Part shown: positions 8,483-32,062 of the stretch, piece after piece
Layout of the letters: each line of letters begins with the position of its first letter
Position numbering within the stretch: position 1 is the first letter of the stretch
DNA from: an uncultured Croceitalea sp.
Lineage (GTDB): Bacteria; Bacteroidota; Bacteroidia; Flavobacteriales; Flavobacteriaceae
Length of the DNA: 40,692 bases
Direction of reading: 5' to 3'
NCBI GenBank assembly: GCA_937959125.1
Contig: CALGQU010000120.1
Location: 1 to 40,692 of the forward strand
The notes under the pieces: generated by a model
What the model was told of the DNA's origin: nothing
What the model saw: only the letters and a program-made list of their open reading frames with translations
The model's database searches: none
Translations under genes and position numbers: made by a program

Positions 8483-8654
8483 GTTTGATGATTTTTTTTG
8501 GAAAACAGATGGCATGCGAATTGCATTATGAGATTGATTTTAGGTTCATATATGGGGTAGTACCCCGTGATTGTTGGGCCTAGATGCTTGACGCAGCGAA
8601 AAAAAAAATTAAAATAGACTGTCTTTGATGACAGAATGACTGATAATACTGGGT

Positions 8655-29401: not shown

Positions 29402-29760
29402 TGAAACTTTTCTTTAAAATTTTAGCCTTTCTCTTTGCACTGCTTTTTTTATGGGGTGCGGCCGTCCAGTATAACGATCCAGATTCCATGAAATGGTATG
29501 CCATCTATGGAATGGGTGCCTTGGCATCTCTCCTCTTTACATTTGACCGGCTTAAATTTCTATGGGCCTTGTTTTTATTTGGTTTTTATCTGGGTTACAG
29601 TATTTACAATTGGCCAGATGCTTTTGAAGGGGTAACCATTGGTGAGGGCGATATTGTTAACGTAGAACGGGGCAGGGAAGCACTGGGTACTTTGATTTTG
29701 GCTATCGTGATGTTGATGTACGCCGTGCGGGTCAAGTTTTTTTCCGCATCAAAGGTCTAA
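29401..29760 (+). CDS. TMEM220-type small membrane protein at the end of the ebo operon
   Basis: Protein of 119 residues with four hydrophobic segments. The TMEM220 signature WGAAVQYNDPDSMKWYAIYG spans the end of the first helix and the loop. It overlaps the eboF stop by one base (TAATG), so it is translated as part of the operon. It is not one of the six named ebo genes; a role in membrane passage of the ebo product is conceivable but only suggested by location. Its 3' end overlaps the dnaX 3' end by 12 bases. Confidence 0.8.
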   Translation: MKLFFKILAFLFALLFLWGAAVQYNDPDSMKWYAIYGMGALASLLFTFDRLKFLWALFLFGFYLGYSIYNWPDAFEGVTIGEGDIVNVERGREALGTLILAIVMLMYAVRVKFFSASKV

Positions 29761-31563
29761 GTCGAACTCTTTTCTTAATAGGTCGATTGCCGGGTTTTTT
29801 TCTTTCAATTTTTCATATTTCTCCTCTGCCGTAAAAGCATATTTTTTGTTCTGCGCTTCGTTGACGGTAATTTGAAGGGTAATATCGTAATTCTGTAATT
29901 TTTCCTTTAAAAAGTTAAGCATTAAGCTCTGTTCCCGTTCTACCTCTTTTTTCATGGTAGAATTGGCAAGTTCAATACAGATAGTGGTTTCGTCCTTTAA
30001 GGTTGGAACATCGGACTGTAGGTTGGCAGCCAAGATTTTTTTGCCTTTAGCATCCAGTTTTTTTACAAATTCATCCCAATAGGACTGCATATCCTTTTCC
30101 TCAAAAGCCTGGGTAGGAAGGGTAACCGTTTTATCCGTGTCCACCTTGGCATTTTCATGTTCCTTTTTGGCTTTTATGCTAGAAATGGAAAGTCCGGATA
30201 CTCTATTGGAGGCATTTTTTAAATCAATTTTTACAGGACGTTCTTTTTTCTCTGAGGGTACGGTAGCGGTACTACTTTCTATTTGTTTTTCCGGGGCTAG
30301 GGACTGGACGGTATTGGGGGCAGTTTCTTGGTTTTGGTTCGGATTTTTTGACTCCTCGTGGCCTATGGATACTGGAGCATTTTCTTTTTTTGCCGGACTT
30401 TGAAGTATTTCCTCGGTTATCGAGAACTTTTTTTCGGGGGCTTTGGTAAAAGGCTGGTTTCTGTAATAGGTTGCGGGGACTATAAAATCATCCTTTTTTT
30501 TTTCAGCGTCAAAATTTAGGGAAGCCAATTTCATGAGGCAAAGCTCAACGAGCAAACGCTGGTTTTTGCTTTGCTTGTAATTAAGGTCGCAGGTATTGGC
30601 CAATTCCAATGCCTTTAATAAAAAAGTCTTGTCGGTTTCCTTAGATTGCTCCAAATACTGTTTTTGCGTAGCTTCCCCTACTTCCAACAAGGAAATGGTT
30701 TCTTGGTGTTGGCAGACCATAAGATCCCTAAAGTGAGATGCCAATCCGCTAATAAAATGTTGGCCATCAAAACCCAAAGCTAAAGTTGTATTGAAAAGGA
30801 GTAACAACTCTGGGATGTTATTTTCCAGTAACAGTTTTGTGGTTTTAAAAAAGGTATCGTGGTCTAAAACGTTCAAGTTTTCCGTGACCGCTTTTCTGCT
30901 CAAGTTTTTACCGGAAAAACTGACGACCCTATCAAAAATGGAAAGGGCATCACGCATGGCCCCATCGGCCTTTTGGGCAATAATATGAAGCGCATCATCC
31001 TCAGCATCAATCCCTTGTTCTTCCGCGATATACTTTAGATAGTTGGCCGCGTCTTTAACGGTAATCCTTTTAAAATCAAAAATTTGGCATCTGGATAAGA
31101 TGGTTGGGATAATCTTGTGTTTTTCCGTAGTGGCCAGTATAAAAATAGCGTGCTTGGGCGGCTCCTCCAAGGTTTTTAAAAATGCGTTGAATGCCGCTTG
31201 GGAGAGCATGTGTACCTCATCAATAATATACACTTTGTATTTACCTACTTGTGGTGGTATACGGACTTGGTCCGTTAAACTGCGTATATCATCCACGGAA
31301 TTGTTGGATGCAGCATCCAATTCAAAAATATTGAACGCAAAGTCCTCATTCCCTGTCTCATTCCCATCCTCATTGATCTTTTTTGCCAGTATGCGCGCAC
31401 AAGTCGTTTTTCCAACACCCCGCGGGCCGCAAAAAAGAAGTGCTTGCGCCAAATGGTTGTGGGCAATGGCATTTTCCAAGGTGTCCGTAATGGCCTGTTG
31501 CCCTACGACATCTTTAAATGTCTGGGGGCGATATTTTCTGGCCGATACTACAAAAGGTTCCAA
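29749..31563 (-). CDS. dnaX: DNA polymerase III subunits gamma/tau
   Basis: Clamp-loader ATPase of 604 residues. Walker A is GPRGVGKTT (46-54) and Walker B is IIDEVH (113-118); LSRCQIFDF carries the SRC motif. Domain III ends near CLMKLASLNFD (about 350), followed by a low-complexity linker with Pro, Glu and Lys and a tau-type C-terminal domain with QSYWDEFVKKLDAKGKK. The four zinc-binding Cys expected between Walker A and ELDAASNN are absent; the segment reads KINEDGNETGNEDFAFN. An A10 run at codons 354-357 offers a route to a short gamma-like product. A TAnnTTTG box lies 23 bases before the start. Confidence 0.95.
   Translation of the reverse strand: MEPFVVSARKYRPQTFKDVVGQQAITDTLENAIAHNHLAQALLFCGPRGVGKTTCARILAKKINEDGNETGNEDFAFNIFELDAASNNSVDDIRSLTDQVRIPPQVGKYKVYIIDEVHMLSQAAFNAFLKTLEEPPKHAIFILATTEKHKIIPTILSRCQIFDFKRITVKDAANYLKYIAEEQGIDAEDDALHIIAQKADGAMRDALSIFDRVVSFSGKNLSRKAVTENLNVLDHDTFFKTTKLLLENNIPELLLLFNTTLALGFDGQHFISGLASHFRDLMVCQHQETISLLEVGEATQKQYLEQSKETDKTFLLKALELANTCDLNYKQSKNQRLLVELCLMKLASLNFDAEKKKDDFIVPATYYRNQPFTKAPEKKFSITEEILQSPAKKENAPVSIGHEESKNPNQNQETAPNTVQSLAPEKQIESSTATVPSEKKERPVKIDLKNASNRVSGLSISSIKAKKEHENAKVDTDKTVTLPTQAFEEKDMQSYWDEFVKKLDAKGKKILAANLQSDVPTLKDETTICIELANSTMKKEVEREQSLMLNFLKEKLQNYDITLQITVNEAQNKKYAFTAEEKYEKLKEKNPAIDLLRKEFDLDL
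30494..30503 (-). promoter_or_regulatory. A10 slippery run in dnaX with an immediate -1-frame stop
   Basis: On the dnaX strand the codons are GAA AAA AAA AAG GAT GAT (354-359). Shifting to the -1 frame gives GGA TGA, a stop at once, for a product of 358 residues. Losing one A gives AGG ATG ATT TTA TAG, also an early stop. The site lies just after domain III, as expected for making a gamma subunit by ribosomal frameshifting (E. coli) or transcriptional slippage (Thermus). Use in this organism is inferred. Confidence 0.55.
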
Positions 31564-31585
31564 GGTGCTTTTTTTTGAATACCTA

Positions 31586-31983: not shown

Positions 31984-32020
31984 AAATAAAAAAGAGGAAC
32001 CAAATAAGAAAAATAGAAAA

Positions 32021-32062
32021 AAAAAAGGTCGTCTAGAAATAACTTTCTAGACGACCTTTTTT
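32021..32062 (+). terminator. Strong bidirectional terminator between rnpB and the lipoprotein gene
   Basis: A 19-bp perfect stem (32021-32039 with 32044-32062) has a 4-base loop, with A6 on one side and T6 on the other, so it can end both rnpB (plus) and the minus-strand lipoprotein gene. It shares the arm TTTCTAGACGAC with the hairpin at 5375-5410. Confidence 0.93.

Follow-up and report, generated by a model that had tools for sequence, protein, structure and literature searches.

The dnaX gene of the uncultured Croceitalea genome analysed here carries ten consecutive adenines directly behind the part encoding domain III, with stop codons close by in both other reading frames. We consider it probable, at roughly 80%, that this A10 tract is a programmed transcriptional slippage site from which a single gene gives both tau and gamma. 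RNA polymerase would realign on the T10 template and produce dnaX mRNAs with 9, 10, 11, 12 and more A's. Those with 10 or 13 A's would encode tau (604-605 aa), and all others would meet a stop within a few codons and yield a gamma-like subunit of 357-361 aa, which comprises domains I-III and lacks the C-terminal part specific to tau. Slippage in most relatives from the same family, Flavobacteriaceae, is probably helped by a hairpin that the nascent RNA forms immediately behind the polymerase. The slippage itself, the ratio of the two products and the entry of gamma into the clamp loader are predictions drawn from sequence features, which are presented below.

The A10 tract of dnaX and its predicted products

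The window (the whole stretch of DNA that was analysed, 40,692 nt) encodes DnaX, the gamma/tau subunit of the clamp loader, on the minus strand (29749..31563, TTG start). The full frame corresponds to a tau of 604 aa, and the match to the DnaX family (NCBIfam PRK14971, 725 bits, cut-off 685) spans nearly the whole length of this protein. An A8 run was also observed just upstream of the TTG start, on the same strand (window 31563-31585). Domain III covers residues 222-349 (30517..30900, minus strand; Pfam PF12169, 28.1 bits, cut-off 24.4), while the TIGR02397 N-terminal model ends at residue 346. The A10 tract, the proposed slippage site on the basis of its sequence and its conservation in the family, was mapped to 30494..30503 of the minus strand and appears as T10 on the plus strand. 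It encodes the end of E354 and K355-K357 (residues 354-357), at 58% of the CDS, and is thus located directly behind domain III. The first-pass annotation had already put it there, with an interval (30492-30504) that takes in flanking bases.

The zero frame across the run reads GAA AAA AAA AAG GAT GAT TTT ATA GTC. The -1 frame, reached with one extra A, meets a TGA at 30488..30490 (minus strand), and the +1 frame, reached with one A fewer or two extra, meets a TAG at 30480..30482 (minus strand), the predicted gamma-like product of the latter frame being 360-361 aa long. When the gene was translated with one A added to the run, the product ended in EKKKG after 358 aa; with one A removed, it ended in EKKRMIL after 360 aa; and with three A's added, tau was recovered with one more lysine (605 aa). 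Near stops in both other frames and lengths of 358 against 604 residues had been put forward in the first-pass annotation, every checkable detail of which holds, save for one or two bases at the edges of its interval.

Just nine separate A or T runs of at least 10 were found in the 3.5-Mb genome, that of dnaX included, and three of the nine are located in this 40-kb window. The two other A10 runs of the window, at 8599-8608 and 32017-32026, are both apparently intergenic. For five of the eight runs outside dnaX, no stop-to-stop frame of at least 80 codons covers the run. The other three are inside such a frame and outside its likely gene, as judged by eye: those at window 8599 and at locus L176 are just upstream of the first start codon of the frame, and the one at L173 is in an unsupported ORF between two longer ORFs. 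Apart from that of dnaX, no run of at least 10 was seen inside a well-supported protein gene when the ORF lists were inspected by eye.

Conservation of the A tract and the off-frame stops

The main set consisted of 328 distinct dnaX genes, one duplicate (L128) having been removed. The run was called as the longest within codons 285-430 after the Walker A motif, a stretch that reaches beyond the site. The named set of 80 loci was drawn with six peptide patterns, one of them spanning the site, and may favour runs; the other sets came from whole-protein or N-terminal profile searches. For the family, 103 of the 147 other genomes with a match were taken into the main set. One batch of these picks favoured short open frames (13 of 14 genes were split, i.e., gamma ends in the zero frame and tau requires a shift), so the split share of 28/113 in the family is too high. 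The phylum draw took 90 of the 107 genomes with a match, and five more, with several of group f15 skipped, and the class draw took 58 of 59 genomes. Neither the single-frame nor the split label applied to seven of the 328 genes, mostly cut records. The shuffling, near-stop, fold-z and stem tests used 275 genes, and four recovered and 50 class-level genes were added later. A held-out check, kept outside the main counts, used 20 of the 44 remaining family genomes (every second in the list, the last 24 being left out). The partial locus L010 was counted in the genus result alone.

The site was looked for in eight genomes of the genus, counting the window's own, and is covered in seven. Each of these seven carries A10-G and both near stops, the -1 frame being closed by TGA and the +1 frame by TAG or TAA. 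The six relatives share 71-89% protein identity over the matched parts; neighbouring codons have changed, while the run and both stops are kept. In the family, at least nine A's were found at the site in 112 of 113 genes, and the held-out genes all had A10 (20/20, all single-frame). The conservation that the first-pass annotation had proposed to check in relatives is present at each of these levels, and the interrupted run that it had named as a refutation is not what the family contains.

Across the phylum sample, 277 of the 328 dnaX genes have at least nine A's behind domain III. These include both genes from another family of the same order, 50 of 64 genes in the rest of the class (36 of 50 families having it in most of their genes), 44 of 69 genes in other classes of the phylum (9 of 19 families likewise), and 69 of the 80 genes of the named set, whose record titles range from Flavobacteriaceae to Bacteroidales, Pedobacter, Hymenobacter and Dyadobacter. 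Among the 328 genes, the run was 9 long in 38, 10 in 213, 11 in 23, 12 in 1 and 13 in 2; no run of length 8 was found, 23 genes had a run of length 5-7, and 28 were without any run of at least 5. The length distribution thus shows a gap just below nine. Nine A's is given in PMC5009743 as a length at which bacterial RNA polymerase slips efficiently, and PMC1088944 reports that selection against runs of such length is evident in many genomes. In group f21 (L226-L231, L233-L236, L247-L250), a family of another class, 13 of 14 genes have A9 in phase 2 and the other has A10, with tau in the zero frame.

The run is absent in 51 of the 328 genes, Bacteroides-like ones and some truncated records among them, so the slippage route to gamma would not be universal. 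Loci L058, L066, L075, L090, L103, L105 and L108 are Bacteroides-like and other Bacteroidales dnaX genes of this kind; two of them, L103 and L105, have a frame that stops near domain III though no run is present.

An A10 tract at this place is far beyond chance. It could be argued that the runs merely reflect the lysine codons of a linker rich in A and T and that sequencing errors have produced the split genes, and synonymous shuffling of the 206 single-frame genes does by itself leave at least nine A's in 71 of them. The observed count of 172 out of 206 refutes this. In addition, at least nine A's were found in 18 of 32 genes with more than 55% GC (exactly A10 in 16 of the 18), split genes recur across many genera with near stops, and the same 206 genes contain 173 such runs in 90 kb of the searched stretch against a single one in the other 275 kb. 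We find this explanation scarcely credible.

The near stops are conserved along with the run. In single-frame genes of the family, the -1 frame has a stop within three codons in 96% and the +1 frame has one within eight codons in 98%. Both off-frame stops fall within eight codons in 97.6% of the 83 single-frame family genes and in 19 of the 20 held-out genes; control positions within these linkers reach 27.8%, and synonymously shuffled sequences 22.7%. Both stops were within this distance in 93.8% of 48 named genes (control 25.2%) and in 78% of 41 other genes outside the family (control 19.8%). A -1 ribosomal shift needs the -1 stop alone, whereas a mixed mRNA population needs both.

Split genes, sequence context and a hairpin 5' of the run

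Split genes account for 79 of the 328 genes, and in 77 of these at least nine A's are found in the overlap. Tau is in the -1 frame in 69 of the 77 and in the +1 frame in 8. The zero-frame and third-frame stops are both within eight codons in 66 of the 77. Separate translation of the downstream half was rejected as an explanation, since just 6 of the 77 have an ATG no more than 30 codons from where the downstream frame opens (GTG and TTG were not counted). In an unselected family draw, a short open frame of 350-440 aa ending near domain III was seen by eye in 24 of 148 genomes with a match. The window's own gene is not split: tau is one open frame, and the reversal of polarity is absent. On a FastTree tree of 115 DnaX N-terminal regions, many branches of which are weak, polarity changes at least 18 times, five of the changes being forced by well-supported branches, and the run is kept in 114 of the 115 rows. 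One family genome (L301) has a split dnaX without an A run, in which the zero frame ends GTG GAA AAG TAA and tau is in the -1 frame; this is perhaps a ribosomal shift that has replaced slippage, or an assembly error.

Two Flavobacterium relatives that are one A apart differ in the frame of tau (A9, +1 frame in L048; A10, -1 frame in L049). Such pairs are what would be expected of a contingency locus, in which replication slippage adds or removes bases in the DNA and tau is turned on and off by phase variation. The length, however, is held at 10 in 213 of the 277 genes with a run, and the near stops flank the run, including the paired stops of the 66 split genes mentioned above. dnaX is an essential replication gene, and loss of tau from it should not be tolerated. 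Phase variation is therefore a very unlikely account of the run. Transcriptional slippage would feed all three frames, which explains why genomic polarity, i.e., whether tau or gamma is in the zero frame, is free to drift; a ribosomal shift in one direction does not explain it.

Gamma would also arise, with faithful transcription, if ribosomes shifted by -1 at A_AAA_AAG as they do in E. coli dnaX. The window's gene has this heptamer in frame and a -1 stop close behind it, and A10-G is found in the seven genus members that cover the site. Only one type of tRNA-Lys (anticodon TTT) was seen among 30 tRNA matches, a list that is incomplete (without tRNA-Ile and tRNA-Asp). The tRNA-Lys argument as made for Thermus is accordingly of no help here against ribosomal frameshifting, and with the heptamer and the single tRNA-Lys type seen, some ribosomal contribution is possible in the window's genus.

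Among the 277 genes with at least nine A's, the run occurs in phases 1, 2 and 0 in 195, 56 and 26 genes, respectively, and the base that follows is G in 108, T in 99 and C in 70. A_AAA_AAG is in frame at just 78 of the 277 sites and was rejected as a general rule. A shift of +1 is needed in the 8 split genes noted above, stops are close in both off frames, and the heptamer needs six to seven A's, yet the length peak is at 10. In E. coli, dnaX has an SD-like element about 10 nt 5' of the heptamer and a stem-loop a few nt 3' of it. No AGGAG/GGAG-like purine stretch was seen by eye in the 30 nt upstream of the run in the window, and no conserved structure was found 3' of the run (family mean z -0.35; window z +0.81, MFE -2.4), on which grounds a 3' stem-loop of the E. 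coli type was rejected. The window thus resembles E. coli dnaX in the outcome and in the presence of A_AAA_AAG, but differs in having neither the 3' stem-loop nor the upstream SD-like element, and the heptamer is not conserved in the phylum. As the shared mechanism, that of E. coli is disfavoured by the phases, the share of sites with the heptamer and the 3' structure, and we regard it as unlikely to be the source of gamma. The length of the run is preserved, whereas its phase, the base after it and the polarity all vary, a pattern that points to slippage of RNA polymerase as in Thermus rather than to frameshifting of the E. coli type; both polarities and both shift directions favour transcriptional slippage as well. 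The first-pass annotation had proposed either a frameshift or a slippage signal for a gamma-like subunit; the conserved run and stops support such a signal, and slippage is the form that we favour.

The 60 nt upstream of the run are unusually structured in the family (mean z -1.67, as compared with -0.06 and -0.21 at two control places). In a search for stems whose 3' arm ends at most 4 nt from the run, with a score of at least 14, 75 of 112 family genes and 15 of the 20 held-out genes had a 5'-abutting stem; the rate was 3.5% at 2471 control positions and 8.8% among synonymous shuffles. These 75 stems represent 28 different sequences, usually with 8 bp and a 4-nt loop and directly adjoining the run. 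Stems are rarer beyond the family, with unrelated sequences: they were detected in 23 of 69 named loci (synonymous null 7.9%), 6 of 27 mixed other loci (7.5%), 5 of 15 genes of group f15 (null 17.5%) and 3 of 14 of f21 (null 4.8%). In a fixed 8-bp register, 74.1% of cells were paired, with a mean of 68.5% and a maximum of 71.3% after re-dealing and 33-52% in slid registers, and three pairs showed 7 to 15 two-sided changes. This covariation is modest because many genes use another register, and the best-stem search is the stronger test. An antisense terminator was rejected by reasoning alone, since a hairpin followed by an A run on the coding strand makes a terminator on neither strand.

The window's genus does not show this family hairpin clearly. 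The last bases before the run are paired in the 60-nt fold in 3 of 6 genes of the genus (22% of 72 control positions), compared with 70 of 101 in the rest of the family (14.4% of controls). In the window's own dnaX, no local hairpin was detected by the stem search. A possible RNA stem of 7 bp with a 44-nt interior (30504..30561, minus strand; arms 30555-30561 and 30504-30510) ends exactly at the run, the 60-nt fold having an MFE of -14.4 kcal/mol and a z of -1.96, with 9 of 200 shuffles as low. It is also found in the nearest relative (L003). With 80 nt of the window's upstream sequence, a different fold has the minimum energy, which makes a hairpin in the window itself uncertain.

Relation to known recoding systems and significance

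In slippage of the Thermus type, tau and gamma are both made, at about 1:1. For Thermus thermophilus dnaX, a mixed mRNA population giving the two proteins was described by Larsen et al. 2000 (as cited in PMC1088944 and PMC5009743), and the run is an A9 located seven-eighths of the way through the coding sequence (PMC1088944). The window's gene has the corresponding features, namely at least nine A's in the sense strand of dnaX, tau as one open frame in the zero frame, and alternative frames that are both soon closed by stops. It differs from the Thermus gene, as these sources portray it, in that its run is A10, directly follows domain III and is placed at 58% of the CDS, and in having relatives with both polarities and often a 5' hairpin. 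Taken alone, the window would be a member of the Thermus kind, recognised here by sequence; considered with its relatives (both polarities, fixed A10, hairpin), it appears to form a variant within that kind that is not known to have been described before.

The -1 ribosomal frameshifting of E. coli dnaX is classical, as is the A9 slippage of Thermus (PMC1088944, PMC5009743). The GeneTack survey listed 17 split dnaX genes from 12 genera, nine of them with 10 A's, in which tau needs recoding, and slippage was proposed; three Chlorobi dnaX genes with 7-9 A's were also named (PMC3711429). Split A10 dnaX genes are thus already known, as predictions. The reversed-polarity relatives found here are of that type as the survey describes it; in the window tau is in the zero frame, so that its gene presumably offers no frame transition of the surveyed kind. 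For the IS630 of Roseiflexus, Penno et al. 2015 (as cited in PMC5009743) described slippage that is stimulated by a hairpin 5' of the run, the run being T5C5 with one specific deletion (PMC5009743). A hairpin directly 5' of the run is likewise present in most dnaX genes of the family, that of the window being uncertain, but dnaX is a replication gene with an A10 run and predicted shifts both ways, unlike the T5C5 case as that source presents it. In a literature search with thin coverage of subscription papers and no comparison with the nine A10 species of GeneTack, we came across no account of an A10 dnaX with a single frame in Bacteroidota, of its reach in the phylum, of the repeated polarity flips or of the 5' hairpin.

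For the phylum as a whole, we lean towards an old dnaX slippage switch common to much of Bacteroidota, in several classes, with A10 kept at a set length and often primed by an abutting terminator-like hairpin. As slippage would feed all three frames, the genomic polarity would have drifted freely and flipped many times with neither protein lost. If this is true, programmed slippage would be a normal route to the short clamp-loader subunit in a major phylum and not a curiosity of Thermus. Many dnaX genes that look broken in the DNA may then be annotated as truncated, the short frames seen by eye in the 24 family genomes being of this appearance. The repeated flips of polarity would argue for a long-standing need for both tau and gamma in these lineages, and this would bear on the old question of what gamma is for.
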